A DNA stretch of 60,563 nucleotides, from contig JAPOVS010000055.1 in NCBI GenBank assembly GCA_026708055.1, forward strand, positions 1-60,563. Direction: 5' to 3'. Both the position numbers and the translations under genes were made by a program. Each line of letters opens with the position of its first letter. The stretch's first letter is position 1. This DNA is from a bacterium (lineage in GTDB: Bacteria > Actinomycetota > Acidimicrobiia > Acidimicrobiales > CATQHL01). Of the stretch, positions 9,635 to 48,575 are shown piece after piece. The notes below the pieces were generated by a model, which saw nothing but the letters and a program-made list of their open reading frames with translations, searched no databases and was not told the DNA's origin.

Positions 9635-9645
9635 GGAACCGCAGG

Positions 9646-10389: not shown

Positions 10390-10483
10390 GCTAGGCCGAC
10401 TCCGGGCACTCGGGTACCCAGTACTGACAGGTAGGGTGGTCCCGCCCCAACGCCAGCGATCCCACACGCCGAGGAGCCGTCCA

Positions 10484-28552: not shown

Positions 28553-28618
28553 CGTCTCAGCCTACGAGCGCGTGCCGGAGCCGCAGGGTCACCCGAGGGC
28601 GCCCGGCGGGAACGCTCC

Positions 28619-31009: not shown

Positions 31010-31479
31010 GACTGCGCCTCGGCGGTACCGGCGAGCGCCTCCAGCGCGCTGACGATGTTGATGTAGCCGGTGCAGCGGCAGAGATTGCCCGCCATCCATT
31101 CCACGATCTCGTCCCGGCTGGGGTGCGGGTCGGTCTCGAACATCTCCAGCGCCGTGAGGACCATGCCCGGCGTGCAGTAGCCGCACTGCAGGCCGTGGTG
31201 GGTCGACAGCGCCTGCTGGATCGGGTGCAGCGCTCCCGGCGATCCGACGCCCTCGATGGTCCGTACCTCAGCACCGGTGGCCTGGACGGTGAACATCAAG
31301 CAGGAGCGCACGCTGGCGCCGTCGACGAGGATCGTGCAGGCACCGCAGGCACCCTGCTCGCATGCTGCGTGAGCCCCCGTCATGGAGAGGCGGTCCCGAA
31401 GCGTGTCGAGCAGCAACTCGCGCGGCTCGACGTCGACCTCCGCGGCCTCACCGTTGAGCGAGAACCTGACATCCGTCAT
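31006..31479 (-). CDS. Small (2x[2Fe-2S]) subunit of the molybdenum hydroxylase
   Basis: The 157-aa CoxS/NdhS-type protein has a plant ferredoxin-like cluster CEQGACGACTILVDG...C in the first half and the second cluster LQCGYCTPGMVLTA with GNLCRCTGYINIVSA in the helical second half. It shuttles electrons from the molybdenum site to FAD. Length and all eight cluster cysteines are normal. It sits between the FAD subunit (47-base gap) and the large subunit (4-base overlap). Confidence 0.95.
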   Translation of the reverse strand: MTDVRFSLNGEAAEVDVEPRELLLDTLRDRLSMTGAHAACEQGACGACTILVDGASVRSCLMFTVQATGAEVRTIEGVGSPGALHPIQQALSTHHGLQCGYCTPGMVLTALEMFETDPHPSRDEIVEWMAGNLCRCTGYINIVSALEALAGTAEAQS

Positions 31480-31526
31480 GACGTTCGACTCCTCATGGGT
31501 TCCTCCTTGTCGTGATCGGCTCGCGC

Positions 31527-32408
31527 TCAGCCGCGGCCGGGCGATCCCGCCCGTCCCCAGGCTCTTCGCACGGCATCGGTGGCCAGCACGGCGGCGAGCT
31601 CACGGCGGTATTCCGCCGAGCCGTGCACGTCGCCGGACGGATCCGACGCCGCCGCCACCCGTCTGCCCAGTTCGTCCGCTCCGCCGCCGGTCAGGGCGGA
31701 CTCGCCCAGCAGGAACTCCCCCGCCGCGCTCAGGTCCACCGGGGCGGGGCCGAGACCGCAGCCGGCGACCCGCAGCCCGTCACACGCACCATCCTCGTCA
31801 CGGTGCAGGATCACGACCACACCCGCCGTGGCGAAGTCGCCGTGGCGGAGGACGAACTCCGAGAACGCGCCGCCGTCGCCCTCGCGGTGAGCGGGGACCT
31901 CCACTGCACTCAGCAGTTCGGCGGGCTCGAGGCTGGTCGTGAAGGGCCCCTCGAAGAGCTCGGCGGCGGGAATGGTCCGCTCACCCGCGGCGCTGCTGGC
32001 GATCACCTGCCCACCCAGCGCGACGAGCAGTGCCGGCAGCTCCGCCACGGGATCGGCGTGGGCGAGGCTGCCGCCGAGCGTCCCCCGGTTGCGGATCCCG
32101 ACGTGGCCGATGAGACCCGCCGTCTCGGCGAAGATCGGAGCCTTCTCGCGCACCAGCGGATCCGTCTCCAGGAAGCGATGGCGGCACATGGCGCCGAAGC
32201 GCAACGTGCCGTTGCCGGCCTCGAAGCCGGCCAGCGACGCCACGCCGTTCACGTCCACGAGCAGGCTCGGACGCGCCAGGCGGAGGTTCATCAGCGGTAC
32301 GAGGCTCTGCCCCCCCGCCAGTATCCGGGCGTCGTCGGCGCCGGCGAGCGCCTCAGCGGCCTCGGCGACCGACGTCACGGCGACGTAGTCGAATCTTGCG
32401 GGTTTCAC
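31527..32408 (-). CDS. FAD-binding (medium) subunit of the molybdenum hydroxylase
   Basis: The 293-aa CoxM-type protein has the FAD motif ARILAGGQSLVPLMNLRLA near the N-terminus and the second FAD motif IRNRGTLGGSLAHADPVAE. A CO dehydrogenase flavoprotein C-terminal domain follows. The start is GTG 32406-32408, overlapping the Rieske stop (GTGA) and preceded by an AGGAG-like ribosome site. It passes electrons to an acceptor; the fused quinone oxidoreductase downstream is one speculative partner. Confidence 0.93.
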   Translation of the reverse strand: MKPARFDYVAVTSVAEAAEALAGADDARILAGGQSLVPLMNLRLARPSLLVDVNGVASLAGFEAGNGTLRFGAMCRHRFLETDPLVREKAPIFAETAGLIGHVGIRNRGTLGGSLAHADPVAELPALLVALGGQVIASSAAGERTIPAAELFEGPFTTSLEPAELLSAVEVPAHREGDGGAFSEFVLRHGDFATAGVVVILHRDEDGACDGLRVAGCGLGPAPVDLSAAGEFLLGESALTGGGADELGRRVAAASDPSGDVHGSAEYRRELAAVLATDAVRRAWGRAGSPGRG

Positions 32409-33625
32409 CTTGTCGCTCCTATCCCCCCTGCCGCAGGCTCCCGCCGACCGATCCGCTGTCCGGAACTCGACGGCCAGCACCGCTCGTAGCGTCTCACCAG
32501 CCAGCGGTTGAACTGCGCCAGGGTCTCCTCCTGCCAGGAATAGCGACCGCGGGGCGCGAACACCGAGTTCAAGCCCTTCTGCACCATGCGGTCGGCGTAG
32601 ACATCCTGCACGTTGAAGTTATCAACCCCCTGCTCGGCCTGCTCGAAGAGGTACTCGAACATGGGATCGGCGAGCGCCGAGGGCTCGAAGCAATAGCCGA
32701 TGTGGATCGTGATCTCCCCCGGGCCGTCGGGGCTGATGATGAAGTAGGCGACCTCGTCGGGCACGATCGCCAGGGACAGGGTGGGCGGGATGAGCACGAA
32801 CGACCCGCGCCGCCGCTGCGCCTCGGTGAGGTTGGCGAAGGTGGGCAGGATGCACTTCTTCGTGGGGTTGAACGACCCGTCGATGTCGGTGAAGTGCTGG
32901 ACGCGGCCGATGGCCCCGTCGTCGTCGTCCCACCGCAGGTAGTCGTTGAGGTGGCTCGGGGCGAACGTCTGGAGCGGGCCGTGCAGCCGGCTGGCGTGGT
33001 AGGGGTCATTGAAGTTCTCCATCATGACCTTCCAGTTCCACGGCAGGTTCGGCAGCGTCTTGCCCTCGCGGGTCACCGTGTCCGACAGACCGAAGTTCTC
33101 CAGGATGTCGTCGATCTTCCCCAGGGTGGGCCCCAGTGGCTGAGCGTCGGCGTCGAAATTGCAGAACACGAACCCCTGCCAAAGTTCGGTGCGAAGGCGC
33201 GGCAGGCCATGGTCGGCCTTGTCGAACCCGACGGCGCGCTCCATCGCCGGCGCGCCCAGCAGTGCCCCGTCCAGACCGTAGGACCAGTGGTGGTAGGGGC
33301 AGGTGAAGCGGCGTGTGTTGCCGGACCCTTCCGCCAGCACCATGCCGCGGTGCTGGCAGACGGCGGAGACGACCCCGATCTCGCCGTCGCCGTCGCGCAG
33401 CATGATCAGCGGCTCCCCCGCGAGTGTGATGCAACGGAAGTCGCCCGGCTCGGGAACCTGGTCGGCCCGCCCGACACAGAGCCACTCTCGCTGGAACACC
33501 GCCCGCCGCTCGAACTCGTAGAACTCCGGGGACGTGTAGATGACGGGGGGGAGCAGGCATGCCTCGTCGACCGCCCCGACCGACGCGGCGAACGAGTCGC
33601 GCAGTTCCCTCGTCAGGACGGTCAT
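32405..33625 (-). CDS. Rieske non-heme iron oxygenase, alpha subunit
   Basis: The 406-aa catalytic subunit has the Rieske [2Fe-2S] ligands C90-x-H92 and C109-x2-H112 (SAVCQHRGMVL, FTCPYHHWSYG). The mononuclear iron site lies in NWKVMMENFNDPYHASRLH (H210, H215). Such enzymes dihydroxylate aromatics or oxidatively demethylate substrates such as betaines and methoxy compounds; the sequence does not identify the substrate. No reductase or ferredoxin partner gene is next to it, so electrons must come from elsewhere or from a neighbour. ATG 33623-33625 has a GGGAGG ribosome site. It heads a minus-strand run of seven genes ending with the TauE fusion. Confidence 0.92.
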   Translation of the reverse strand: MTVLTRELRDSFAASVGAVDEACLLPPVIYTSPEFYEFERRAVFQREWLCVGRADQVPEPGDFRCITLAGEPLIMLRDGDGEIGVVSAVCQHRGMVLAEGSGNTRRFTCPYHHWSYGLDGALLGAPAMERAVGFDKADHGLPRLRTELWQGFVFCNFDADAQPLGPTLGKIDDILENFGLSDTVTREGKTLPNLPWNWKVMMENFNDPYHASRLHGPLQTFAPSHLNDYLRWDDDDGAIGRVQHFTDIDGSFNPTKKCILPTFANLTEAQRRRGSFVLIPPTLSLAIVPDEVAYFIISPDGPGEITIHIGYCFEPSALADPMFEYLFEQAEQGVDNFNVQDVYADRMVQKGLNSVFAPRGRYSWQEETLAQFNRWLVRRYERCWPSSSGQRIGRREPAAGGIGATR

Positions 33626-33682
33626 GCGGCGCCTCCCTTCCGGCACTGCGACCCTGGCATCGGTGACGCGGACACAACGGGA

Positions 33683-33711
33683 ATTATGGTCGTCACCGGA
33701 GCGCCGCACAA
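33683..33711 (-). promoter_or_regulatory. Candidate promoter of the Rieske-molybdenum hydroxylase-formate dehydrogenase run
   Basis: On the minus strand TTGTGC (33706-33711) and CATAAT (33683-33688) are separated by 17 bases and lie 58 bases upstream of the Rieske ATG. The 385-base divergent gap (33626-34010) also has to hold the promoter of the plus-strand signalling operon. A TAGATT at about 33940 is one weak candidate. Nothing else in the gap is recognisable. Confidence 0.4.
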
Positions 33712-34010
33712 TCGGGGTGGCGCCACCGCCGACGCTCCGCCGTTGCTGCGACCGCGCCGGCGAGCGGGGCTATGACCCGTCGCGACCGGCGGCCGGCAGG
33801 AGCAACGGCGATCGTGAGGCCCACAGGATTGCGGCGCCGCTAGTGTCGGGAGGACGGGCCGGATTGCCGGGACCGCGGCGAACGGGACTATCGTTCTGCT
33901 GCGGGCCCGCGGGGGCGCCCCCATGGTCTCCCGGCACGGCTAGATTGTCGGAGCGCCCGGGACGGGTGCGGCGCAGCGGGGAATCACCAGATGGCAGGTA
34001 AGGAGCAGAG

Positions 34011-34352
34011 ATGATGGAAGTGACTTCCGAGCGGCGGGGTTCGACGGTGATCATCAACACCGCCGGCCGGGTCGACGGATCGAACGCCAGCGATTTCCAG
34101 GACGCCTTGGAGGCCAACATCGGCGCGGAGGACAGCGCCGTCATCCTGAACCTCGCCGAGTTGGACTACATCAGCAGCGCCGGACTGCGCATCATCCTGC
34201 TCACCGCCAAGAACCTCCGCCAGCGTAAAGTCGGCTTCTCCATCTGCTCGCTGTCCTCCTCGGTGCACGAACTCTTCATCATCAGCGGTTTCGACCAGAT
34301 CATCGCTATCCACAGCTCTCCCGAGACCGCCCTCGCCGCGCAGGAGGGCTGA
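34011..34352 (+). CDS. STAS-domain anti-sigma factor antagonist
   Basis: The 113-aa SpoIIAA/RsbV-like protein has the phosphorylation-site region LDYISSAGLRIILLTAKN near residues 50-67. In partner switching, the unphosphorylated STAS protein binds an anti-sigma kinase and frees its target; a PP2C phosphatase reactivates it. Both partner types are encoded in the next two genes. The ATG at 34011 follows AAGGAG; a second ATG at 34014 is equally placed. It is the first gene of a five-gene plus-strand operon. Confidence 0.92.
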   Translation: MMEVTSERRGSTVIINTAGRVDGSNASDFQDALEANIGAEDSAVILNLAELDYISSAGLRIILLTAKNLRQRKVGFSICSLSSSVHELFIISGFDQIIAIHSSPETALAAQEG

Positions 34353-34430
34353 CGGAGCAGCGCCCCAGCGACTCTGCGCGGACGAACCACGGAGCGACCC
34401 CGAGCGAGCGCGCCGGAGGGACCGGAAGCG

Positions 34431-35600
34431 ATGGCCAAAGCGACATACAAGATCCTCGTCGTGGACGACGAGGTCGACTTGGAACCGCTCATGCTCCAGC
34501 GGATGCGGCGCGACATCCGCTCCGGTCGCTACAGCTTCGTCTTCGCCCACAACGGCATCGAGGCCCTCGAGAAGCTGAACACCGACGACGACATCGACAT
34601 GGTGCTCTCCGACATCAACATGCCCCAGATGGACGGGCTCACGCTCCTGGAACAGATCCCCAGCGTCGACCCCAACATCAAGTCGGTCATCATCTCGGCC
34701 TACGGGGACATGAAGAACATCCGCACGGCCATGAACCGCGGCGCCTTCGACTTCGTCACCAAACCCCTGGACTTCGCCGACCTGCGCATCACCATTGAGC
34801 GGACCCTCGCCCACCTCACCGAATGGCGCGCCGCCCTGGCCTCCCGCGACCAGCTCGTGTCGCTGCAGAAGGAACTCGACGTCGCCAACAGGATGCAGAA
34901 GTCGATCCTCCCGACGCGATTCCCGCGCGAGGGTGACTACGAAGTCTTCGCCCACATGGAGCCGGCGCGCAATGTCGGAGGCGATTTCTACGACGTCATC
35001 AACCTCGAGGGGGGCCGCATCGGGCTCTGCATCGCCGACGTCTCCGACAAGGGGGTGCCCGCGGCCCTGTTCATGATGTCCAGCCGCACCCTGCTGAAGG
35101 GCGCCTCCATCGGCTGTGACAACCCCGGCGACGTACTGCAGGAGGTCAACGAACTGCTGCGCGAGACGAACGACACCGAGATGTTCGTCACGCTGCTCTA
35201 CGGGATCTACAACCCCGCCACCGGGGACTTCACCTACGCCAACGGCGGGCACAACGAGCCGCTCCTGATCCGACCCGATGGAAGCTCGTCGTTGCTCCCG
35301 CGCACCGGCGGGATCATCCTCGGGGTGATGGCCGGCGTGGAGTTCGCCCACAACACCGTCAACGTCGGGCCGGGCGACACCCTGTTCCTGTACACCGACG
35401 GTGTCAGCGAGGCCATGAACGTCGAGGCGGAGGAGTTCGGGATGGAGCGGCTGGCGGCGATTTTCGCCGAGACCCCGCCGAACGACGCGGAGGAGACGAC
35501 GATGACCGTCTTCAAGGCGGTCCACGGCTTCGCCGGCGAGACTCCGCAGTCCGACGACATCACCTGCCTGACGCTGCACCGAAGCGAGCCGGGGAGTTGA
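34431..35600 (+). CDS. Response regulator fused to a SpoIIE/RsbU-type PP2C phosphatase
   Basis: In this 389-aa protein, a receiver domain (residues about 5-125) has the acidic pocket LVVDDEVD, phospho-acceptor D61 in VLSDINMPQMDG and conserved Lys in FVTKPLDF. A coiled linker (about 130-165) leads to a PP2C-like phosphatase with the metal Asp sites RNVGGDFYDVI and CIADVSDKGVPAALFM, plus TDGVSEAMN and DDITCLTL. It should dephosphorylate the STAS protein when its receiver is phosphorylated by the histidine kinase at the end of the operon. The stop overlaps the next start. Confidence 0.93.
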   Translation: MAKATYKILVVDDEVDLEPLMLQRMRRDIRSGRYSFVFAHNGIEALEKLNTDDDIDMVLSDINMPQMDGLTLLEQIPSVDPNIKSVIISAYGDMKNIRTAMNRGAFDFVTKPLDFADLRITIERTLAHLTEWRAALASRDQLVSLQKELDVANRMQKSILPTRFPREGDYEVFAHMEPARNVGGDFYDVINLEGGRIGLCIADVSDKGVPAALFMMSSRTLLKGASIGCDNPGDVLQEVNELLRETNDTEMFVTLLYGIYNPATGDFTYANGGHNEPLLIRPDGSSSLLPRTGGIILGVMAGVEFAHNTVNVGPGDTLFLYTDGVSEAMNVEAEEFGMERLAAIFAETPPNDAEETTMTVFKAVHGFAGETPQSDDITCLTLHRSEPGS

Positions 35601-36022
35601 GCGCGCAATTCCGGCTGGAGGTCGGCGCCGCGCAGCACGAGTCCGTCGATGACGCCCTCCGGCACATCGAGGCGTCACTGGATGAGTTCGGCCGCCTCGA
35701 GCGCTGCGGTGACGATCTGGCCTTCAAGCTGCATCTCATCATCGAGGAACTGGCCCTGAACGCCATGACCTACGGCGGCGCCGAGAGCGTGCAGATCACC
35801 ATCACCACCGAGGCCGAGGCGGTCACCGTGGAGATCTCCGACGACGGCGTCGCCTTCGACCCGCTGAACGACGCCCCCCAACCCGACGTGAACGCGGCCC
35901 TCGAGGACCGTGCCGTCGGCGGGCTGGGGATCCATCTGGTTCGCACGCTGACCGACGACCTGAGCTACCGCCGGGACGGGGAGCGGAACCACCTGACCCT
36001 GGTCACGCGGCAGACGGAATGA
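35597..36022 (+). CDS. RsbW/SpoIIAB-like serine kinase ATPase (anti-sigma or switch kinase)
   Basis: This 141-aa GHKL ATPase (HATPase_c_2 type) has the N box EELALNAMTYGG, the G1 box ISDDGVAFDP and the G2 box AVGGLGIHLV. It would phosphorylate the STAS protein and hold a sigma factor or another effector. The start is TTG overlapping the previous stop (TTGA at 35597-35600). No sigma factor is encoded in this operon, so its target is elsewhere or is not a sigma factor. Confidence 0.9.
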   Translation: MSAQFRLEVGAAQHESVDDALRHIEASLDEFGRLERCGDDLAFKLHLIIEELALNAMTYGGAESVQITITTEAEAVTVEISDDGVAFDPLNDAPQPDVNAALEDRAVGGLGIHLVRTLTDDLSYRRDGERNHLTLVTRQTE

Positions 36023-37272
36023 TCGAACCGCTGCGGCGGAGGTTCCCCTCGGCTCTGGGGGTTCTCGCGCTGTCGGCGCTGGTGGCCGCAGCCTGCACCA
36101 CCGGCAGCGAACCGGATCAGCCCACCACCGGCTCGACGCAGCCTGCGCCGCTCGACGGGCCCCCGGCCGGCCCGGCCGCGACGGCGGCTTCCCAGGGCAT
36201 CTTTGAGGACTCGGTCCTCTTCGGCCAGTCGGCCGCTTTCAGCGGTCCCGCCCAGGAGCTCGGTCTGAACATGCGCCTCGGCATCGAGGCCGCCTTCGCC
36301 GAGGCCAACCGGAACGGCGGGGTCCATGGCAGGCGCCTGGATCTCGCCTCCCTGGACGACGCCTACGAGCCGGAGGCGGCGGTCACCAACACGCAGCAGC
36401 TCATCGAGTCCGACGGCGTGTTCGCGCTGATCGGCGAGGTCGGCACACCCACGTCACGTTCGGCCACCCCGGTCGCCGCCGCCGCGCAGGTCCCGTTCAT
36501 CGCCCCGTTCACGGGGGCGGAGTTCCTGCGCGACGACGACTGGCGCAACATCATCAACCTGCGCGCCTCCTACTACCAGGAGACCGAGGAGATCGTCGCC
36601 AGGCTGATCGCCGACCAAGGCGTCGACCGCATCGCGGTCATGTTCCAGGACGACTCCTTCGGCCGCGCCGGCTACCGCGGCGTGCTGCAGGCCCTCGACC
36701 GGCGGGACATGGAACCGGTCGCCATCGGTCTGTACCCCCGCAACACGACGGCGGTGCGCACCGCCCTGTTGGACCTCCAGTTGGGCGATCCCGACGCTGT
36801 CGTCCTAGTGGGCGCCTACGAGCCAGTCGCCGCGCTGATCGCCTGGGCGCGCTACCTCGGCGAGGACTGGACGTTCGTCACGATCTCCTTCGTGGGCGCC
36901 AACGCCCTGGCCGAGGAGCTGGGCCCCTTCGGCGACGGCGTGTTCGTGACCCAGGTCGTGCCCTTCCCCGATGACGACTCGCTGCCGGTCGTGGCCGCCT
37001 ACCGCGCCGCCCTGGAGGCGCACGATCCCGACGCCGCGCCGGGGTTCGTCTCGCTGGAGGGCTACTTGGCGGGCCGCATGGCGATCGTCGGACTCGAGCG
37101 CTGCGGGCGCGACCTGAGCCGGACCTGCTTCCTCAAGGAGATCCTGCGGGGCGAGCCGGTGGACATCGACGGTTTCGAGCTCGTTTTCGGCGGCAACGAC
37201 AACCAGGGCTCCGACGCCGTGTTCCTCACCATGATCCGCGACGGCCGCTACGTCGCCACCGGCTCGATGTGA
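36019..37272 (+). CDS. Periplasmic/extracytoplasmic ligand-binding lipoprotein (LivK-like ABC substrate-binding fold)
   Basis: The 417-aa protein starts with a signal sequence and a lipobox (ALVAAAC, Cys at about residue 29), then a Thr/Pro/Ala-rich tether. A type I periplasmic binding domain follows (VLFGQSAAFSGPAQELG, RLDLASLDDAYEPEAAV, ALIGEVGTPTSRS, FVTISFVGANALAEEL). These proteins bind amino acids, amides or small aromatics. No permease or ATPase genes follow; instead it is locked (ATGA overlap) to the switch kinase and sits just before a sensor kinase. It probably acts as a ligand sensor, as TorT does for TorS. Confidence 0.9.
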   Translation: MIEPLRRRFPSALGVLALSALVAAACTTGSEPDQPTTGSTQPAPLDGPPAGPAATAASQGIFEDSVLFGQSAAFSGPAQELGLNMRLGIEAAFAEANRNGGVHGRRLDLASLDDAYEPEAAVTNTQQLIESDGVFALIGEVGTPTSRSATPVAAAAQVPFIAPFTGAEFLRDDDWRNIINLRASYYQETEEIVARLIADQGVDRIAVMFQDDSFGRAGYRGVLQALDRRDMEPVAIGLYPRNTTAVRTALLDLQLGDPDAVVLVGAYEPVAALIAWARYLGEDWTFVTISFVGANALAEELGPFGDGVFVTQVVPFPDDDSLPVVAAYRAALEAHDPDAAPGFVSLEGYLAGRMAIVGLERCGRDLSRTCFLKEILRGEPVDIDGFELVFGGNDNQGSDAVFLTMIRDGRYVATGSM

Positions 37273-37336
37273 GGACGGTCGGTGACGTGAGCGCCCCCGA
37301 GCAGCGGGCGGTCCCGGCCTCCGGGGAGGTCCACGC

Positions 37337-39523
37337 ATGCTGAGAGACCGGCTGCGCGTCCTGGTGGACTTCGCCCTGCGGATCTCGACGCAGATGTACG
37401 TGGCGATCGGCGTCCTCGTCTCCCTGACCGTCGCCGCCATCGCCGTGAGTTGGCTGTCGTTCAACAGCATCGAGGGCACCCAGGACCGCGTCAACACCGA
37501 GAGCCTGCCGCGGATCGTCACCGCCTTCCGGGTCACCGAGCTGAGCGGCCGGCTGGTCGCCGCAGCCCCGCGCCTGACCGTGGCGGCCACACCCGAGGAG
37601 CTCGGCGCGGTCTCGGCGGAGATCGTGGAGACCCAGGAGGAGTTCCGCAGGGAGTTGGAGCTCCTCGAGCAGCAGGACATCGATGCGGCGCTGTTCGTGG
37701 CGATTCGCTCGCGCGCCCGGCAGCTCGAGTCCAACATCGCCCAGATCGAGGCCGAGATGCCGACGTCGTTCGCGCTCGCCGTCGAGATCGAGGCCCTGCG
37801 CGTGCAATTGGCCGAGATCAGCCGGAAGCTGGACGACATCCTGCTGCCGGCACTCGACGAGCAGCTCTTCTACCAGATGACCGGCTACCGGCAGATCGGC
37901 GAGCCCCCCGCGCCGCGCGAGCGGCACTTCACCGAGGCGGAGGTCATCCGCTACCGCCACCTGCTGGCCCTGCAGACCGACACGGCCATCGCCACCCAGC
38001 TGCTCTCCAGCGCTTTCAGCGTCTCCAACGCGGCCCTCATCGAGCCCCTGCAGGAGAGCTTCGAGTCGGTGACCGACCGCATCGAGATCAGCGCAACCGC
38101 CATCGGTCTGATCGCCCAGCGCGGCTACCTGGTGTCGGTCCTGACCGACCTGTTCGCGTTGGGCGTCGGCGCCGACAGCGGCTTCGCCCTGATCACGGCG
38201 CAGCTGGAGCTCGGCGAGCGCCAGCGCGAGCTGCTGGCCCAGAACCGCGTCCAGGCCGCCGAGTTGGCGACCGGGGTGCAGGAGTTGATCAGCAACGCCC
38301 GCAGCGACGCCGACGACGCCACCACGGCCTCCGCCGACGCCATCGGGACCTCGCGCGTCCTGCTGCTGGTGATCGCCGGCGTCAGCGTGGTCGTGGGGCT
38401 CGCGATCATCCTGGGATTCGTCAGCCGCCTGCTGCTGCGACGGCTCAACCAGCTCTCGAACCGCATGCGCCGCATGGCCGACGGGGACCTCGAGGACGAG
38501 GTCGTCATCAGCGGCCGCGACGAGGTGTCGGAGATGGCCCACGCCTTGGAGATCTTCCGCCGCCACGCCCTGGAGGTCCAGCGCCTCAACCTGGTCGAGA
38601 AGCTGGCCGAGGAGCTCGGCGAGAAGAACAGCGAGCTGGAGCAGGTCCTGGAGGAGCTGCACAGGGCCCAGGATCAGATCGTCATGCGGGAGAAGCTGGC
38701 CGCGCTGGGCGAGGTGACCGCCGGGGTGGCCCATGAGATCCGCAATCCCCTCAACTTCGTGAAGAACTTCTCCGAGGTCTCCGCCGAACTGGTCGAGGAG
38801 CTCCAGGAGGTGCTGGAGGAGGCCGGGGACACCCTCACCGACGAGCAGCGGGAACTCATCGCTGACATCGCCGCCGACATCACCGAGAACCTCGAGCGCA
38901 TCGGCTCGCACGGCGCCCGCGCCAACACCATCGTGCACGACATGCTGATGATGAGCCGTGAGACCGGCGAGTGGCGGCGCGCCGACATCAACGGGCTCAT
39001 CGAGGAGCACGCCAGGCTGGCCTTCCACAGCGCCCGCGCCGTCGATCCGGACTTCCAGCTGAACCTGGAGTTCGACCTGGATCCCGAGGTGGGCGAGCTC
39101 GAGGTGCTGCCCCAGGACCTCGGCAGGGTGTTCATCAACATGGTGGGCAACAGCTGCCACGCCACCGACCAGAAGCGCAAGAGGCTGGTGGAGGCGGGCG
39201 AGGGTTCCTCCTACATGCCCACGGTCCGCACCAGCAGCCGCCGGACCCCCGACGGCGTCGAGATCAGGATCCGCGACAACGGCGACGGCATCCCCGCCGA
39301 CGTGGTGGACAAGATCTTCAACCCGTTCTTCACCACGAAGCCCACCGATCAGGGGACGGGCCTGGGCCTGGCGATCACCAACGACATCGTCCGCGAGCAC
39401 GGGGGCAGCATCGGCGTGGACACCGCCCCCGGCGAGTACACCGAGATGACCATCTCGCTGCCCGCGCAACGGACGGAGGCCGCAGCGGAGGATCCGGCGG
39501 AGGCCGCCCCCGCCGAGGAGTGA
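37337..39523 (+). CDS. Membrane sensor histidine kinase with large extracytoplasmic helical domain
   Basis: In this 728-aa kinase, the first transmembrane helix (about residues 18-40) and the second (about 339-363, VLLLVIAGVSVVVGLAIILG) enclose a roughly 300-residue helical sensor region like those that read out periplasmic binding proteins. A HAMP domain follows (RRMADGDLEDEVVISGRDEV), then a coiled coil and the H box AGVAHEIRNPLNFV with H466. The ATPase part has IRDNGDGIPADVVDKIFNPF and GTGLGLAITNDIV. The C-terminal tail is Ala/Glu-rich. It is the natural kinase for the response regulator-phosphatase in the same operon. Confidence 0.92.
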   Translation: MLRDRLRVLVDFALRISTQMYVAIGVLVSLTVAAIAVSWLSFNSIEGTQDRVNTESLPRIVTAFRVTELSGRLVAAAPRLTVAATPEELGAVSAEIVETQEEFRRELELLEQQDIDAALFVAIRSRARQLESNIAQIEAEMPTSFALAVEIEALRVQLAEISRKLDDILLPALDEQLFYQMTGYRQIGEPPAPRERHFTEAEVIRYRHLLALQTDTAIATQLLSSAFSVSNAALIEPLQESFESVTDRIEISATAIGLIAQRGYLVSVLTDLFALGVGADSGFALITAQLELGERQRELLAQNRVQAAELATGVQELISNARSDADDATTASADAIGTSRVLLLVIAGVSVVVGLAIILGFVSRLLLRRLNQLSNRMRRMADGDLEDEVVISGRDEVSEMAHALEIFRRHALEVQRLNLVEKLAEELGEKNSELEQVLEELHRAQDQIVMREKLAALGEVTAGVAHEIRNPLNFVKNFSEVSAELVEELQEVLEEAGDTLTDEQRELIADIAADITENLERIGSHGARANTIVHDMLMMSRETGEWRRADINGLIEEHARLAFHSARAVDPDFQLNLEFDLDPEVGELEVLPQDLGRVFINMVGNSCHATDQKRKRLVEAGEGSSYMPTVRTSSRRTPDGVEIRIRDNGDGIPADVVDKIFNPFFTTKPTDQGTGLGLAITNDIVREHGGSIGVDTAPGEYTEMTISLPAQRTEAAAEDPAEAAPAEE

Positions 39524-39544
39524 CGGCCGCCCGGGGACGGGCCG

Positions 39545-41434
39545 TCAGCCGGCGAGAGGCTCGACGCGCACCGCCGTGGCCTTGAAGCCCGCGGTCCCCG
39601 AGAGAGGATCCCAGTCGTCGGGCACGAGCAGGTTCGTGTCTACTTGGTCGGGGAAGTGGAAGGTCAGGAACGCCAGGCCCTCGACCAGATCGGGGTCGAA
39701 GCGCACCGGGGCCTCCACGGCGCCGCGCCGGGACACCACCCGCACCACCTCGCCCTCGGCGATCCCCAGGCGGCGGGCGTCGGCGGCGCAGAGGTCCAGC
39801 TCCTCCCGGCGGCGCAGCGGCGAGGCGAACGATCCCGACTGGACCCCCGTGTTGAACGAGTCCAGGCGCCGCCCCGTCGTCAGCCGGATGGGGAACGCCT
39901 CGTCGAGGGTGTCCAGCGGCGCCTCCCACTGCACCGGCACGAACGGCACCCGCGGCCCTTCGAGGGGATCGGCCCAGAGCCGCCCGTGCAGGAACTGCGA
40001 CCCCGGGTGCTCCTCGTCGGGGCACGGCCAGCGAATGCCGCCCAGCGCCTCGAGCCGCCGGTAGGTCATCCCGGCGTGGTAGCTCGAGAGCGAGCGCAGC
40101 TCGTCCCAGACCGCCTCCGCGTCGGGCTCGCCCCAGTCGTGGCCCAGCTCGCGGGCCAGGGCGAAGGTGATCGCCAGGTCGTCGCGCGCCTCGCCGGGGG
40201 GCGCCACGGCGGCCCGCACGAGCTGCACGCGCCGCTCGCTGGAGGTCACGGTGCCGGTGGTCTCGGCGAAGCTGGCCGCGGCGGGCAGCACCACGTCGGC
40301 CAGCTGCGCCGTGGCGGTCAGGAAGATGTCCTGCACCACGAGGAACTCCAGGTCGGCGAGCACGCGCCGGGCGTGCGCCACGTCGGCCTCGGAGTCGGCG
40401 GGGTTCTCGCCGACCACGTACAGCGAGCGCAATCGCCGGTCCGCCATGGCCTCGAACATCTCCGAGAGGTGCCAGCCGGGCTGCGGCGGCACCGGGGCGC
40501 CCCAGGCCTCCTCGAAGCGGCGCCGCCCGGCCTCGTCGCTGAGGTCACAGAAGCCGGGCAGGCGGTTCGGCAGCGCACCCATGTCGCCGCCGCCCTGGAC
40601 GTTGTTCTGGCCCCGCAGCGGCGCCAGGCCGGAGCCGTAGCGCCCCACGTGGCCGCACAGCAGCGCCAGATCAATGAGCGCGAACACGTTGTCGGCGGCG
40701 TTGTGGTGCTCGGTGATGCCGAGTGTCCAGCAGAGCTGGGCGCGCTCGGCCGTGGCGTAGAGGTGGGCCAGCTCGACGATCGCCTCGGCGGGCAGGCCCG
40801 TGATCGACGCGGCCCGCTCGGGGGTGTAGGGGGCCACGGTGGCGGCGTAGTCCTCGAAGCCGGTCGTGGCATGGCCGATGAAGTACTCGTTGTGCAGCCC
40901 GGCGGCGATGATCTCGGCGGCCATGGCGTTCGCCAGGGCGATGTCGGACCCCACGTTCACGCCCAGCCACAGGTCGGCGAAGCTCGCCGAGGCGCTGCGC
41001 CGCGGGTCTACGACCACCAGCTTGGCGCCGTTGTTCCGGCCGGCCAGCATGCGGTGGAACATGATCGGGTGGGCAGCGCGGGCATTGGAGCCCCAGAGCA
41101 GGATCAGGTCGGTGTGCTCGAGTTCCTCATACGAGCTCGTCCCTCCCCCGACTCCGAAGACCGTCGTCAGACCGACGACGCTGGGGGCATGTCAAGTGCG
41201 GTTGCAGCTGTCGATGTTGTTCGAGCCGATGACCGTCCGGGCGAAGCGCTGCAGGGCGTAGTTCAGCTCGTTCGTGGCCTTGGAGCAGCTGAACGCGCCG
41301 AAGCTCTGCGCACCGTGGCGGCCGACCGACCGCTGCAGGCCCTCGGCGGCACAGGCGAGAGCCTCCGACCAGCTCGCGGGCCGCAGGTCACCGCCGCGGT
41401 CGCGGATCAGCGGCTCGGTGAGGCGTTCGGGCAT
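39545..41434 (-). CDS. fdhA: Catalytic subunit of formate dehydrogenase, selenocysteine-containing, lacking the N-terminal Fe-S domains
   Basis: Read with the in-frame TGA at 41192-41194 as selenocysteine, the product is 629 aa. ATG 41432-41434 has a GAGGAGG ribosome site and starts MPERLTEPLIRDRG. The block SNNIDSCNRTUHAPSVVGL places the TGA (residue 81) at the Mo/W ligand, next to the invariant His of formate dehydrogenases (E. coli FdhF U140-H141). The substrate Arg region PLRGQNNVQGGGDMGAL and the C-terminal cofactor-binding domain are intact. The usual preceding [4Fe-4S] domain is absent; it lies in the gene at 25875-26789. If TGA were a stop, a 505-aa fragment starting MFHRMLAG would remain without the metal ligand. 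It is divergent from the helicase gene by 56 bases. Confidence 0.9.
41162..41194 (-). promoter_or_regulatory. Selenocysteine UGA codon with bacterial SECIS hairpin
   Basis: The TGA (41192-41194) is followed after 11 bases by a perfect 7-bp stem, CGTCGTC (41174-41180) with GACGACG (41162-41168), closing the 5-base loop GGTCT. The loop begins 18 bases after the TGA. From established knowledge, the E. coli fdhF SECIS has the same apical GGUCU, also 18 bases after its UGA, and SelB recognises the GU in that loop. No selA, selB, selC or selD is in this window. Confidence 0.88.
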
Positions 41435-41490
41435 CGTGAGGCCTCCTCGATCGTCCCGGCGCTCCCCCACAGCCTACGGCCTCACCTGCG

Positions 41491-44400
41491 GTGTCTCAGC
41501 GCGACAGTACGGTTCGTGGTGTGAGCGGTCCGGGCGGCGGCGATCTGTTCATCGTCGACAACAGCATCTCCGGCTGGACGGCGCTGGAGTATCTGCGCCA
41601 ATGGACCGACGTGGCGCGGTCGTTCGACATCGCCACTGGGTTCTTCGAGATCGGGGCGCTGCTGGCGTTGGACGGGAAGTGGCAGCAGCTCGACAAGGTG
41701 CGGATCCTGATGGGCGACGAGGTGTCGCTGCGCACGCGTGACGCGTTCAAGGATGCGCTGCGGCGCCGGGTCGGCCGGCTGGACGACAGCCTGGAGGACG
41801 AGAAGGGTCCGAACCCGCTGCTGGAGGGTGTCGAGGCGATCATCGAGGCGATCGCCGAGGGGCGGATCGAGTGCCGGGTCTACCGCCGGGACAAGTTCCA
41901 CGCCAAGGCCTACATCACGCATGCGCGCTTCGACGTGATCGGGGCGCAGGCGTTGGTCGGTTCCAGCAACCTCACCCCGGCGGGACTGACCCGGAACGTG
42001 GAGTTGAACATCCAGATCCGCAGCGGCCGGGAGGTGTCACAGCTTCAGGACTGGTTCGATGCGCATTGGGCGGAGGCCACCGACGTCAGCGACGACGTGT
42101 TGCGCACCATCGCCCGCCACACCGCGGCGTACTCGCCGTTCGACGTGTACGCCAAGGCTCTGCACGAGTACTTCGGTGGCCGGGAACTCACCGCCGGGGA
42201 GTGGGACGAGTCGCGGTCGCGGATGTTCGGCCAGCTCGACCGGTACCAGAAGGAGGCGTACTGGTCGTTGATGAAGATCGCCCAGAGCCACGGCGGGGCG
42301 TTCCTGTGCGACGGCGTGGGGCTCGGGAAGACGTTCGTGGGGCTGATGCTGATCGAGCGTCTGGTGCTGCACGAGAACCGCCGGGTGGTGCTGTTCGCCC
42401 CGAAGGCGGCGCGGGAGGGCGTCTGGGAGCCGCACCTGCGGGACTGGCTGGGTCACATCGGCGGTGTGGGCGGCAGCGCCGACTTCTCCAACCTCACCGT
42501 CCTCAGTCACACCGACCTGCACCGCGGCGGCGCCTTCCCCGAGCGGTTCGCGCGGATCGCCGAGTTGGCCGACGCCGTCATCGTCGACGAGGCGCATCAC
42601 TTCCGCAACCGCGGCAGCCGCGGTGACGCCCCCGGCCCCGGAGGCCCGGCCGGTCTCGCTGCAAGCGGCGAAGGCCCCGGCGGCCGCGGCGACGACGAGC
42701 GGGACCGACGCTCGCGCTACTGGCGCCTGTTCGACCTGCTCGCCAGCGAGACGCGCCCCAAGTTGGTCTTCCTGCTGACGGCCACGCCCGTGAACAATCG
42801 CTTGGCCGACTTCCGGCACATGGCCGAGCTGTTCACCCGCGGCGACGAGGCCTATTTCGCCCGCCGCCTGGGCGTCAACAACCTGACGGCGCACTTCAAC
42901 AACATGGAGCGCCGCCTGTCGGAGTCGCTGGACGAGGGGCTCACCACCGAGGCGGCCGAGGCGCTGGCCGCAGACGAGGTGTTCTCGTCGCTCGTGGTGC
43001 AGCGCAGCCGCGCCTACGCCCGCGCCAGCCAGACCGCCGAGGGGGGCGCGGACACGGCGTTCCCCGAGCGTAGGCCGCCGCAGGTGGCCGAGTACTCCAT
43101 CCGGGCCTCCTACGGTGAGCTGCTGGACATGTTCAGGGAGGCTTTCGAGAAGAAGGACCCGCTGTTCTCCCTCGCCGTCTACTACCCGCTGGCGCACTAC
43201 ACCGGCCCCGACGGCAGCATCAATCCAATCGAGGAGAACCGCCAGCGCCAAGTGGTGGGCCTCATCCGAACCCTGTTCCTGAAGCGGTTCGAGAGTTCCG
43301 CCTACGCCTTCCAGGCGTCGCTCGACCTGCTGCTGCGCAAGCTGCTGGCGTTCGCGAAGGCCCACAGCGAGACCGACGCCGAGCGGGGCCGCTTCGAGGC
43401 TTGGCTGCGGGCCAACGCCGAGTTGGTCGGCTACCGGCCCGAGCAGCAGCTGCCGCTGGGGGAGATCCTCGACGAGCCCGCCCAGGGCGACGCCGACGAG
43501 GACGCCGAGGAGGACGTCGTGCCCCCCGAGCTGCTGGAGGCGGTCGCACACCTCCCCCGCGGCGACTACGACGTGCCGGCGATCCTCGAGAAGACCTTCG
43601 CCGACCTCGACGGAATCGTGCGGTTCATCGACGTGGTCCGCCGGCTCGAGCCCGCCCGGGACGACAAGCTCCGCAAGCTGGTTCGCCTCCTGCGCACCAA
43701 GGATCTGGCCGCCCGCAAGGTGCTGGTCTTCACCGAGTTCGCCGACACCGCCCGCTACGTCGAATCGCATCTGCGCGACGCCGGCATCGACGGCGTCGCC
43801 CGCATCGACGGCGGTTCGACCGTGAACCGGGCCGAGGTGATCCGGCGGTTCTCTCCCTACTACAACGGCAGCAGTTCGGCTGACCTGGCGGCGCGCGGCG
43901 ACACCGAGATCCGGGTGCTGATCTCGACCGACGTTCTCTCGGAGGGCCTCAACCTGCAGGACGCCACCCGGCTCATCAACTACGACCTGCACTGGAACCC
44001 GGTGCGGTTGATGCAGCGCATCGGACGCGTCGACCGCCGCCTCAACGCTGCCGTCGAGCAGCGCCTCACCGCCGACCATCCCGAAGTCGCCGGCGACCGC
44101 GGCACGACCCGCTACTGGAACTTCCTCCCCCCCGACGACCTCGAGGACATCCTGAAGCTCTACGAGCGAGTCGCCGGCAAGACGCTTCTGATCTCCCGCA
44201 CGCTCGGCATCGAGGGCCGCAAGCTGCTGCGCCCCGACGACGACTACGACCCGCTGCGGGAGTTCAACGCCACCTACGAGGGCGCGAAGACCTCGATCGA
44301 GGAGATGCACCTGGAGTATCAGGCGCTGCTGAGAGCCGACCCGGAGCTGGCGGCGCGCCTCGACGGCTTGCCCGGGGCGGTGTTCTCCGGCCGCCGCCGC

Positions 44401-44739
44401 CCCGCCGCCGGTGCCCGCGGCGTGTTCTTCTGCTACTCCCTGCCCGCCCTCGACGCCGACCGCGGCGCCTTCACCCTCGAGGCCGGACCGACCCGCTGGT
44501 ACCTCTACGACCTCGACAACGACACCGTCATGGAGTCGCCCGCAGACGCCGCCGGCATCGTCGCCGGCATCCGCTCCAAGCCGAACACGCCGCGGCGGTG
44601 CACGATGAGCGCCGCGACCCTCAAGGAGGTTCGCGACATGGTCCTCGGCCACATTCGCAACACCTACCTGAAAATGGTCAACGCGCCCATGGACGCGCCA
44701 GAGCCCAAACTGCTGTGCTGGATGGAGCTTAACCAGTGA
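41491..44739 (+). CDS. SNF2-family helicase with N-terminal phospholipase D-like nuclease domain
   Basis: The protein is up to 1082 aa (GTG 41491; an alternative GTG at 41521). Residues about 20-195 form a PLD-like domain with one HKD-type motif (KFHAKAYITHARF, ALVGSSNLTPAGL). The helicase follows: Walker A CDGVGLGKTFVGL (about 273), VIVDEAHHFRNRG (about 365), FLLTATPVNN, KVLVFTEFADTARYV, STDVLSEGLNLQ and motif VI QRIGRVDRR (about 842). A 35-residue Gly/Pro/Ser/Asp-rich insertion (about 374-408) sits just after the DEAH box. It overlaps the methyltransferase start by 4 bases (GTGA). The pair should act as a restriction or anti-phage system, with this protein translocating and cutting DNA; the role is inferred from domains. 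Confidence 0.9.
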   Translation: MSQRDSTVRGVSGPGGGDLFIVDNSISGWTALEYLRQWTDVARSFDIATGFFEIGALLALDGKWQQLDKVRILMGDEVSLRTRDAFKDALRRRVGRLDDSLEDEKGPNPLLEGVEAIIEAIAEGRIECRVYRRDKFHAKAYITHARFDVIGAQALVGSSNLTPAGLTRNVELNIQIRSGREVSQLQDWFDAHWAEATDVSDDVLRTIARHTAAYSPFDVYAKALHEYFGGRELTAGEWDESRSRMFGQLDRYQKEAYWSLMKIAQSHGGAFLCDGVGLGKTFVGLMLIERLVLHENRRVVLFAPKAAREGVWEPHLRDWLGHIGGVGGSADFSNLTVLSHTDLHRGGAFPERFARIAELADAVIVDEAHHFRNRGSRGDAPGPGGPAGLAASGEGPGGRGDDERDRRSRYWRLFDLLASETRPKLVFLLTATPVNNRLADFRHMAELFTRGDEAYFARRLGVNNLTAHFNNMERRLSESLDEGLTTEAAEALAADEVFSSLVVQRSRAYARASQTAEGGADTAFPERRPPQVAEYSIRASYGELLDMFREAFEKKDPLFSLAVYYPLAHYTGPDGSINPIEENRQRQVVGLIRTLFLKRFESSAYAFQASLDLLLRKLLAFAKAHSETDAERGRFEAWLRANAELVGYRPEQQLPLGEILDEPAQGDADEDAEEDVVPPELLEAVAHLPRGDYDVPAILEKTFADLDGIVRFIDVVRRLEPARDDKLRKLVRLLRTKDLAARKVLVFTEFADTARYVESHLRDAGIDGVARIDGGSTVNRAEVIRRFSPYYNGSSSADLAARGDTEIRVLISTDVLSEGLNLQDATRLINYDLHWNPVRLMQRIGRVDRRLNAAVEQRLTADHPEVAGDRGTTRYWNFLPPDDLEDILKLYERVAGKTLLISRTLGIEGRKLLRPDDDYDPLREFNATYEGAKTSIEEMHLEYQALLRADPELAARLDGLPGAVFSGRRRPAAGARGVFFCYSLPALDADRGAFTLEAGPTRWYLYDLDNDTVMESPADAAGIVAGIRSKPNTPRRCTMSAATLKEVRDMVLGHIRNTYLKMVNAPMDAPEPKLLCWMELNQ

Positions 44740-47700
44740 GCACAGAACGCCCCGACAGGGTCGAGACGCTTCGCCGGATCCGCATGTTCAAACAGGTGCT
44801 CTGGTACTTGATGGACGAGCGGGGTTGGCCACTGGGGGCCGACGCCCTCGAAGTGGAGGACCTCGAGTCACTGACCTACGACTGGGATCCGCAAGAGTTG
44901 GGCATTCCGGTCGAGGCGCTCGGCAACCTCAGGCAGCTGCGCCAGATGCGGCCCGTCACCGCGGACCAGCCGTGGGGCGTGTTCTTCCTGGAATTCACGG
45001 GGACGAGGCTGCCGATAACCCAGGTGCGACACATCCTGCGCGCGCTGGTCACCAAGAAGCGATCCGCCGACGGCAGGGGCCGGCCATCGTGGGATCTGGC
45101 CGACCTGCTGTTCATCGTCATGACGGGCCCGGCGGGCACGGTGGAGCTCCACTTCATCGCCTTCGAAGGCGACAGCCCGGCCACCGCGGAATTCCGGCCG
45201 CTGACGTGGCGGCCCGACTCGCCACCCGGCCATCTACGCCGCCTCGCGGAGGATCTGCTGCCGTGGCTTGACTGGCCCGACGACGACCGCGACGTGGAGT
45301 CGTGGCGCGCTGGCTGGCGCCAAGCGTTCAAGCTGCCGGCAGGCCAGGCGATCCGCGACGCAGCCCGGCTGGCCGAACGCATGGCGTCCACTGCCAGTGA
45401 CCTGCGGAGCCAGATCGCCGAGGCACTCGACGCCGAGGCGGGCGAGGGGCCGTTCTCGACGTTGCTGGGTGAGGTCCGCACCCAACTCGTCAGCGACGTC
45501 GACAGCGCTCGTTTCGCCGACATGTGCGCCCAGACGCTCACCTACGGCGTGCTCAGCAGCCGGGTGACCGACCCGGAGGGCTTCGGTTCGTCGCCGGTCT
45601 TCTCGTCGGTGCCGCTGGCGAACCCGTTCCTGGAGGCGTTCTTCGAGCAGATCCACGACCAGGCCGTCGCGCTCGACATACCCGGCAGCGGCCTCCCGCA
45701 ACTCGTGGCCGACCTGCGGGAGACGAACGTGGAGGCCATCTTGGACCAGTTCGGCGCCACCGCCAAGGGCGGCGACCCCGTCATCCACTTCTACGAGGAG
45801 TTCCTGAAACGCTACGACGCCAAGATGCGCGCCGACGCCGGCGCCTTCTACACCCCCCAGCCGGTCGTGGAGTTCATGGTCCGCCTGGTCGACGAGGTCC
45901 TGCGCACACGTTTCGGCCTGCCGCTGGGCATCGCGGACGCCGCCACCTGGGCGGAGGTGGCCGGCCGCAACGGCTTCGCGGTGCCCGAAGGCGTCGACCC
46001 CGACAAGCCGTTCGTCTCGATGATCGACCCCGCCACCGGCACCGGCACCTTCCTCGTCGAATGGCTGCACCGCGCCCAAGCAAGCTTCGGCGACGGCGCT
46101 GACGCCACCGGCGCGCAAGGCAGCCCTGCGACCAGTCCCATTTCGGCACGCGCTGAGGACTCACCAGCGACGGCGCCGGCGACCAGCACCGCCCCGCCTG
46201 CGCTCGCTCCTGGTTCGAGGCGTGCCGGTTCTGCCGAGGCTTCGCTGGGCAGCGACTGGCCGAACCATCTGCGCGACCATGTGCTGCCGTCGATGCATGC
46301 CTTCGAGAACATGCTGGCCCCTTACGCCATCGCCCATCTGAAGGTGGCTCTCGAGTTCCACAGCGCAGACGCCAGCGACGCGCCCGCGCAGATACTCCTG
46401 ACCGACACCCTCGACCACCGCGCCACCCAGCAGCAGTTCGCCGCCATGGCCGACCCGATAGCCGCCGAGGGCGAACGAGCCGCCGAACTGAAGGAGTCCG
46501 AGCGCTTCACCGTCGTAATCGGCAACCCGCCCTATGACCGCGAGCAGCGCGACGTCGGCGACACCGGGAGGCGCAAGGGCGGCGTGGTCCGCTACGGGGC
46601 TCCGGGCGTCGCGCCGCGTGGCCTCGGCCGCTCACCCGGCGTCTCGACGACCCGTGCTCCCCGGCGTGGCGCCCCGCTGCCAGCACTGCTCGACGACATC
46701 ACTGAGCCGATGCGCGCCGCCGGCGTGGGCCACCACCTGAAGAACGTCTACAACGACTACGTCTACTTCTGGCGATGGGCCGTCTGGCAGGCCACCGAAC
46801 TGCCCCCGGCCCCCGGCGTGGTCGCCTTCATCACCGCCTCGTCGTACCTCGACGGCGTCTCTATGGGAGGTGTGCGCGCCCTGCTGCGGGTCGCTTTCGA
46901 CGAACTGTGGATCGTCGACCTCGGAGGCGAGGGCCGCGGCGCGCAGACCGAGGAGAACGTCTTCGACATCCGCACGCCAGTGGCCGTCGCCATCGGCGTA
47001 CGCAACGGCACCGGCCCTACCGATGAGCTTCATGACGCCCGCATCGGCAGGGACGAAGCAGCGACCCGCGAGTCCGACCGCAGCACCTCCGGCGGCCCAC
47101 CGGACTCGCCCGCCCCGGCCGCTGGCTCCGCGGCCCGTGCTCAGACCGCCGGCGCGGCTACCGGCGGTCGAGGGGGAACGTCGAACGCGGACGCCAGCCC
47201 GGCGGCCAACGACAACGCTCGCGACGAGGGAACGGTTGGCGATTGCACCGTCCGCTACCTGCGGATCACGGGCTCCCGAGCCGACAAACTCGCGAGGCTG
47301 GGCGGAATCGGACTCGACGACCTGTCCGAGGAGGTCCCAGGCACGGGCCTCGACGGGCTCACGCCCCGAAGCGACACTGCGTACTACGACTGGCCCCAGG
47401 TCACCGACCTGTTCCCTTGGATCCGCTCGGGCTGCAAGCTGGGTCGTACTTGGCCGATTGCAGAGAGTCGTGCCCTCCTTGCGAGCCGTTGGGAACGCCT
47501 CGTCAGGGCGGTGCCGCGCAGTCGGTGTGAGCTGTTCGTCGAGACCAACACCGGCAAGAAGATGCACGACGCCCCCAAGCCTCTGCTGCCATCCGAGGAC
47601 AGTCTCCGACCGATCCAGGAACTCGATATCGGTGATGCTCCCGAAGGATTCGACCGGTACGGATACAGAAGCTTCGATCGCCACTGGATCATTGCCGATC

Positions 47701-48575
47701 ACCGGGTGGCTGATCGTCCAGGTCCTGGCCTTTGGGCGGCACGGGGTCCGAGGCAGGTCTTCCTCACGAGCCTGACGTCCACCAAGATCGGGCGAGGCCC
47801 GGCGCTGACCGTCACGCCCTACGTTCCCGACCTCCACTGCTTCCGGGGCTCCTACGGAGCGAAGGACATCATGCCGCTCTACCGCGACCGCAGCGGGCGG
47901 GCACCGAACATCGCCGAGGGCCTGCTCGCCGCCGTCGGTGACCGCCTGGGCGCCGAGGTCTCACCTGAGGATCTTCTCGCCTACGTGTACGCCCTCGCCG
48001 GCACTGCCGCCTTCACCGAGCGATTCGAGGACGAGTTGTCCGAGGCGGCCGGCCCGATCCACCTGCCGATCACCGCCGAACCGAACCTGTTCCAGCGCGC
48101 GGTGGAACTGGGCCGCGACCTTCTCTGGTGGCACACCTGGGGTGAGCGCTTCGCCCCACCCGGCCAGACCCGTCTCCCGCCCGGGCGAGCCCAGCAGACC
48201 ACCCCCGTCGGAGGCATGCCGGAGAAGTTCGGCTACGACCCCGACACCGAGACCCTCACGGTCGGCACCGGCACCTTCGGACCCGTCAGCCCCGAGATCT
48301 GGAACTTCGAGGTCTCCGGCCTGAAGGTCGTCAGCTCTTGGCTCGGCTACCGCATGAAGACCCGCAAGGGCCGAAAGTCCAGCCCCCTCGACGAAATCCG
48401 CCCCACCCGCTGGAGGGAGACCGACGAGCTCCTCCGCCTCCTCGCCATCCTCGAACACACCGTCGAGGTCACCGCCGGGGCCGCCGCCCTCCTCGACGAG
48501 ATCCTCGCCAACCCCCTGATCTCCGCCGCCGACCTCCCCCAACCGACTCCGGACCAGCGCAAACCCCCGGCCTGA
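44736..48575 (+). CDS. Type ISP-like adenine-specific DNA methyltransferase with target-recognition region
   Basis: In this 1279-aa protein, an N-terminal helical region (about 1-345) is followed by an N6-adenine methyltransferase: RADAGAFYTPQPVVEFMVRL, the SAM motif MIDPATGTGTFLVEWL (about 429) and catalytic VVIGNPPYDREQ (about 595). The C-terminal 450 residues (WPQVTDLFPWIRSGCK, SWLGYRMKTRKGRKSSPLDE) resemble the target-recognition part of single-chain type ISP enzymes (LlaGI type), here without the Mrr-helicase half. That function is supplied by the preceding PLD-helicase gene. Three low-complexity Ala/Gly/Pro/Ser-rich insertions (about 451-508, 612-645 and 756-835) interrupt the core. No separate specificity gene is seen. 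Confidence 0.9.
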   Translation: MSTERPDRVETLRRIRMFKQVLWYLMDERGWPLGADALEVEDLESLTYDWDPQELGIPVEALGNLRQLRQMRPVTADQPWGVFFLEFTGTRLPITQVRHILRALVTKKRSADGRGRPSWDLADLLFIVMTGPAGTVELHFIAFEGDSPATAEFRPLTWRPDSPPGHLRRLAEDLLPWLDWPDDDRDVESWRAGWRQAFKLPAGQAIRDAARLAERMASTASDLRSQIAEALDAEAGEGPFSTLLGEVRTQLVSDVDSARFADMCAQTLTYGVLSSRVTDPEGFGSSPVFSSVPLANPFLEAFFEQIHDQAVALDIPGSGLPQLVADLRETNVEAILDQFGATAKGGDPVIHFYEEFLKRYDAKMRADAGAFYTPQPVVEFMVRLVDEVLRTRFGLPLGIADAATWAEVAGRNGFAVPEGVDPDKPFVSMIDPATGTGTFLVEWLHRAQASFGDGADATGAQGSPATSPISARAEDSPATAPATSTAPPALAPGSRRAGSAEASLGSDWPNHLRDHVLPSMHAFENMLAPYAIAHLKVALEFHSADASDAPAQILLTDTLDHRATQQQFAAMADPIAAEGERAAELKESERFTVVIGNPPYDREQRDVGDTGRRKGGVVRYGAPGVAPRGLGRSPGVSTTRAPRRGAPLPALLDDITEPMRAAGVGHHLKNVYNDYVYFWRWAVWQATELPPAPGVVAFITASSYLDGVSMGGVRALLRVAFDELWIVDLGGEGRGAQTEENVFDIRTPVAVAIGVRNGTGPTDELHDARIGRDEAATRESDRSTSGGPPDSPAPAAGSAARAQTAGAATGGRGGTSNADASPAANDNARDEGTVGDCTVRYLRITGSRADKLARLGGIGLDDLSEEVPGTGLDGLTPRSDTAYYDWPQVTDLFPWIRSGCKLGRTWPIAESRALLASRWERLVRAVPRSRCELFVETNTGKKMHDAPKPLLPSEDSLRPIQELDIGDAPEGFDRYGYRSFDRHWIIADHRVADRPGPGLWAARGPRQVFLTSLTSTKIGRGPALTVTPYVPDLHCFRGSYGAKDIMPLYRDRSGRAPNIAEGLLAAVGDRLGAEVSPEDLLAYVYALAGTAAFTERFEDELSEAAGPIHLPITAEPNLFQRAVELGRDLLWWHTWGERFAPPGQTRLPPGRAQQTTPVGGMPEKFGYDPDTETLTVGTGTFGPVSPEIWNFEVSGLKVVSSWLGYRMKTRKGRKSSPLDEIRPTRWRETDELLRLLAILEHTVEVTAGAAALLDEILANPLISAADLPQPTPDQRKPPA

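Follow-up and report, generated by a model that had tools for sequence, protein, structure and literature searches.

The 60,563-nt stretch of DNA analysed here (hereafter the window; contig JAPOVS010000055.1 of assembly GCA_026708055.1) in all likelihood encodes a selenocysteine (Sec)-dependent, NAD-coupled formate dehydrogenase (FDH) of the FdsABG type, the alpha subunit of which is split over two genes; we put the probability of this reading at about 0.9. The genome holding the window (3.9 Mb in 87 contigs, 96% complete) belongs to a genus whose members are recorded publicly as metagenome-assembled genomes (MAGs) of Acidimicrobiia. The host is probably an uncultured, sponge-associated actinobacterium, its sponge origin being read from isolate names.

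The catalytic (molybdopterin) subunit is specified by a gene on the reverse strand at positions 39545–41434, here called fdhA'; its product is a protein of 629 aa that has a single Sec at residue 81 and lacks a [4Fe-4S] domain. A perfect Shine-Dalgarno sequence, AGGAGG (41442–41447, reverse strand), lies upstream of its ATG at 41434. The in-frame TGA, a putative Sec codon for the Mo/W ligand, occupies positions 41192–41194 of the same strand; the frame is open for 80 codons on its 5' side and for 548 codons on its 3' side, as far as the stop at 39545, and there is no further stop among the 629 codons. The initial annotation had placed this TGA at the Mo-ligand site, directly before the invariant His, and the alignment with relatives bears this out: the context is NRT-U-HAPSVVGL and homology continues on both sides. 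It had also anticipated that ordinary annotation would truncate the protein, and a 505-aa ORF starting at 41062, the fragment that a gene caller would report, does exist. The interval it gave, 41162–41434, is correct for the 5' part of the gene, but the gene extends to 39545. Removal of the N-terminus of fdhA' by the adjoining restriction island (from 41491 on) was considered and rejected, since the N-terminus is equally short in all split relatives, which have other neighbours. That island (41491–48575), directly upstream of fdhA' and divergent from it, is probably a defence island and comprises genes for a PLD-SNF2 helicase and for a 1279-aa restriction-modification protein with a Type ISP C-terminal domain, classified as Type IIG in PADLOC.

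Comparison with related genomes, proposed earlier as a check on whether Sec or Cys stands at this codon, returned TGA in all seven genomes of the genus in which the gene occurs (that of the window counted; the proteins of the others are 86–94% identical to that of the window) and in more than 100 others. The expectation that selenoproteins are rare in actinobacteria of this kind was not upheld, as well over 100 of the 395 genomes of the class carry a close TGA-bearing relative. Such relatives span several phyla and include isolates such as Pseudonocardia. Judged by these alignments, fdhA' is an ordinary member of a widespread Sec-FDH family. Some genomes of the class (G234, G129, G312) also encode a second type of FDH, ∼42% identical, in an open frame of ∼965 aa containing one TGA.

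The hairpin downstream of the TGA has exactly the geometry described in the initial annotation. The putative SECIS stem-loop (41162–41180, reverse strand) starts 11 nt past the TGA and consists of a 7-bp stem, CGTCGTC/GACGACG, closing the loop GGTCT (41173–41169), which starts 18 nt past the UGA. The same arrangement, UGA-N18-GGTCT, had been ascribed to E. coli fdhF and was indeed found there (5,368 E. coli genomes checked). Taken singly, the RNA evidence is weak: two occurrences of TGA-N18-GGTCT in the window against 1.3 expected are at chance level, and the folding energy of the 45-nt hairpin region is no better than that of shuffled sequences (z = 0.22) in this GC-rich DNA. A scan of the window at Rfam gathering thresholds yielded no match to a SECIS-like family, and the element was therefore assessed by comparison with relatives, whose conservation decides the matter. 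The GGTCT loop is kept in 103 of 105 distinct Sec-type sequences, and so are all six core pairs (likewise 103/105), with two-sided changes at several pairs (C-G to G-C, G-C to A-T). Codon bias does not account for the fixation of GGT in the Sec genes, because this codon is rare in fdhA' itself (4 of 56 Gly codons). Among 15 relatives with Cys in place of Sec, the loop and the full stem each occur in one; the signal thus persists only together with TGA and is lost when the UGA becomes a Cys codon. Taken together, the comparison supports a conserved bacterial SECIS directly downstream of the fdhA' UGA.

As no sel genes lie near fdhA', the initial annotation held that the host genome must supply them, which proved to be the case. 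A genome-wide search for selA, selB, selD and selC gave profile matches to SelA (387 bits), SelB (284 bits) and SelD (337 bits) and a tRNA-Sec with the anticodon TCA (UCA; 64 bits); selB and selC, on which the Sec reading depended, are both present. The selA and selB genes adjoin on contig C26, ∼11 kb from the tRNA-Sec gene. Across 48 genomes of the test set, SelB scored over the cut-off in 26/26 genomes with an fdhA'-type gene and in 6/22 without one (Fisher p = 3e-8). The selD gene, on contig C40 (∼60231–61175, locus L028), has an in-frame TGA of its own in the motif YSHGAG-U-AGK, at the known Sec/Cys active-site position, so that selenophosphate synthetase itself would be a selenoprotein. 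The sulfurtransferase FdhD is encoded intact on contig C69 (144.4 bits against a cut-off of 140.9) with the motif SACGICG; it was rejected as a Sec protein, the TGA reported inside it being its normal stop. The contig with selAB and tRNA-Sec also carries, at 9179–10726 (L016), a gene for a shortened xanthine-dehydrogenase-like protein with [2Fe-2S] domains and a weak molybdopterin match.

Could the TGA have arisen through faulty sequencing, or through a nonsense mutation in an FDH gene that is decaying? A lone in-frame stop in an otherwise intact MAG gene, from which a gene caller extracts a 505-aa fragment, might suggest so. However, seven independent assemblies of the genus and more than 100 other genomes, isolates included, share the same TGA, no second stop has accumulated in 629 codons, the Sec machinery is present and the SECIS covaries, which leaves this explanation with a negligible probability. 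That this organism has reassigned UGA, to Trp or Gly for instance, is equally hard to credit: the open frame itself speaks for it and nothing more, whereas TGA serves as the ordinary stop in 15 of the 15 window genes examined, from which it follows that the code has not been reassigned, the FDH gene contains no other TGA, and tRNA-Sec(UCA), SelA, SelB and SelD are all encoded. On sequence grounds, the reading of the fdhA' TGA as Sec is confirmed.

The initial annotation of a Sec-containing FDH is therefore supported, but it overlooked the absence of the N-terminal [4Fe-4S] domain from the catalytic chain and two partner genes in the window. The Pfam domains of fdhA' are PF00384 and PF01568 only. 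The protein matches the Fdh-alpha model TIGR01591 at positions 52–672 with 613.5 bits, below the curated cut-off of 666.25 bits as a single chain because positions 1–51 are absent from it. Positions 1–48 of the model are matched instead (54 bits) by a separate NuoG-like Fe-S subunit of 304 aa, encoded at 25875–26789 on the reverse strand and containing Fer2_4, a Fer4 pair and a C-terminal Molybdop_Fe4S4 domain. The latter (PF04879; residues 232–281, 25947–26096, reverse strand) is the domain missing from fdhA', and its ligands C237, C240, C244 and C272 as well as Lys274, the Lys of the CxKG motif, are invariant. In the catalytic chain, Sec81, His82 and Arg274 (within RGQNNVQG) are invariant in 24 sequences. 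Its predicted fold (pLDDT 88) matches over the whole length both Methylorubrum extorquens FdhA 341–981 (Z 46, rmsd 2.0) and Rhodobacter capsulatus FdsA 305–936 (Z 43.6); the AlphaFold model of the Fe-S subunit is of low confidence (pLDDT 52). R. capsulatus FdsA is accordingly divided between the two window proteins, the part up to residue 304 corresponding to the Fe-S subunit and that from 305/307 onwards to fdhA'. Of the 154 loci scored, 140 have the alpha chain divided between two genes. These alignments, together with the tree described below, indicate that a single fission separated the Fe4S4 domain from the molybdopterin domains, precisely at their boundary; the two halves now stand in reversed order.

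The second partner is a NuoE-NuoF fusion of 588 aa (26786–28552, reverse strand), an FdsG+FdsB-like diaphorase with 2Fe-2S thioredoxin-like, FMN/NADH and 4Fe-4S domains; the gene for the Fe-S subunit overlaps it by 4 bp (ATGA). In the class outside the genus, the three genes are found together in ∼34 of 35 loci, nearly always adjoining and on the same strand, in the order Sec gene, NuoE-NuoF fusion, NuoG-like Fe-S protein; in nearly all relatives, the three make up a single operon. In the window, the partner genes lie downstream of fdhA', across a gap of ∼11 kb (28553–39544) with other genes on both strands, which places the Fe4S4-bearing Fe-S subunit gene ∼13 kb from fdhA'. A gap of similar size is present in the genus members whose contigs extend that far. 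On the minus strand the gap holds genes for Mo-hydroxylase L/S/M subunits and a Rieske oxygenase, and on the plus strand a block of STAS, response-regulator/SpoIIE phosphatase, HATPase, periplasmic-binding-protein and histidine-kinase genes.

By analogy with the FdsABG enzymes and with NuoEFG of complex I, this gene set suggests the following path. SelB and tRNA-Sec(UCA) would insert Sec at the UGA (41194–41192) by way of the hairpin at 41180–41162, and FdhD would mature the product by sulfur transfer. Sec-81 would ligate Mo (or W), with His-82 and Arg-274 completing the active site of a cytoplasmic enzyme. Formate would be oxidised at the Mo/W-Sec centre, and the electrons would leave the pterin through the [4Fe-4S] domain on the second polypeptide (25875–26789), run along the Fe-S chain of that subunit to FMN and finally reach NAD+, both on the NuoE-NuoF fusion (26786–28552). 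Since the partner genes lie 11 kb away, co-assembly of the three chains in the genus is inferred from relatives.

This distance invites the question of whether the catalytic subunit of the genus has left its complex and either uses another electron acceptor or dispenses with the remote Fe-S and diaphorase genes. A stretch of ∼11 kb of other genes before the partners is confined, in the loci examined, to the genus, and fdhA' has a strong Shine-Dalgarno site of its own. Nevertheless, the partner genes are intact, lie on the same contig and strand and are 59–66% identical to those of a class relative; the Fe-S gene persists in seven genomes of the genus and the fusion gene in eight; and invariant Fe4S4 ligands would not be expected in idle parts. 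We consider such a departure improbable. A further proposal is that the proximal [4Fe-4S] domain acts in trans across this widespread clade and that in the genus the catalytic half is still more loosely coupled to its Fe-S half, the Sec subunit perhaps being expressed on its own or having more than one electron-transfer partner; it has a low probability, although a higher one than complete departure. Slightly less probable than that departure is that the enzyme is mainly a CO2 reductase, or acts on another substrate, rather than a catabolic NAD+-reducing FDH. FDHs of this kind can be reversible, as are E. coli FdhH and the Desulfovibrio enzymes, which favours the reductive role. The NADH module of NuoE/NuoF type points the other way, as does formate removal in Actinomycetospora chiangmaiensis, which is oxidative and Se-dependent (PMC7176365). 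An NAD-coupled FDH thus remains the preferred reading.

The closest described counterpart of the window enzyme is FDH3 of A. chiangmaiensis DSM 45062, composed of FdhA3 (640 aa, Sec-containing), FdhB3 (614 aa) and FdhC3 (316 aa), a cytoplasmic enzyme annotated as NAD+-dependent; formate removal is reported to require Se, and the proteins were detected by proteomics (PMC7176365). The two systems share three subunits of matching sizes and order, a likeness drawn from sizes and order rather than sequence. They differ in that the operon of A. chiangmaiensis is intact according to the cluster description in that paper, the main text of which makes no remark on a split alpha chain (PMC7176365). Sulfobacillus possesses a cytoplasmic Sec-containing FDH adjoining NuoEFG homologues, and thus, by description, resembles the window enzyme in Sec, location and neighbours (PMC4378227). 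The FdsABG enzymes (R. capsulatus, 6tg9; M. extorquens FDH1, 7vw6/8j83) have the same domains overall, including a NuoE/F-like diaphorase, and their catalytic fold matches that of fdhA' with Z 44–46 at 36–38% identity. However, their alpha subunit is one chain of 950–990 aa, whereas that of the window is encoded by two genes in reversed order; in the window enzyme, moreover, gamma and beta are fused and Sec is present. E. coli FdhF carries Sec at the same site, with identical SECIS loop and spacing and the same catalytic fold (Z 44.6; 1fdi), but its chain includes the [4Fe-4S] domain and it acts within formate hydrogenlyase. In the main texts of open-access papers no description of a split alpha chain was found; open-access searches likewise returned nothing on Sec-FDHs in Acidimicrobiia or FDHs in sponge Acidimicrobiia, and a single unrelated paper on selenoproteins in Acidimicrobiales.

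In a phylogenetic tree, quickly built and with some long outgroup branches, the split forms are all set apart by a single branch (support 87). Their neighbours are fused Sec enzymes from Bacillota that retain the Fe4S4 domain; the nearest unsplit relatives (L184, L188 and L193, including Alicyclobacillus tolerans) are 55–58% identical. The Cys forms constitute one clade, that of the Nocardiopsidaceae (support 100), consistent with a single change from Sec to Cys. This set comprises 15 loci from Nocardiopsis, Streptomonospora and their kin (L166, L167, L169–L174, L177–L180, L182, L183 and L194), with a catalytic subunit ∼60% identical to fdhA' and the same V-A-G-L residues. Another candidate, L163, was rejected as Cys-type, its Cys having come from another aligned piece and its best match containing TGA. 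Like fdhA', the split FDHs of Nocardiopsis and Streptomonospora lack the Fe4S4 domain and have the same partner genes; unlike it, they have Cys for Sec and have lost the SECIS. As far as can be read from these genes, the Nocardiopsidaceae and their kin represent a clean natural replacement of Sec by Cys in which the RNA element is lost and the protein motif kept.

Work on Sec-dependent FDHs has dealt mainly with anaerobes and with catalytic subunits that form one chain. In the present family, which is very common and occurs mostly in Actinomycetota, the Fe-S domain beside the metal site is the product of a separate gene, and it is this split architecture rather than the Sec codon that we regard as the more interesting part of the finding. 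The split offers a natural cut for the engineering of FDH and CO2-reduction modules, and the Cys forms of Nocardiopsidaceae a natural comparison between Sec and Cys. For the Acidimicrobiia, the use of selenium emerges as a normal trait, one that annotation pipelines stopping at UGA would conceal.
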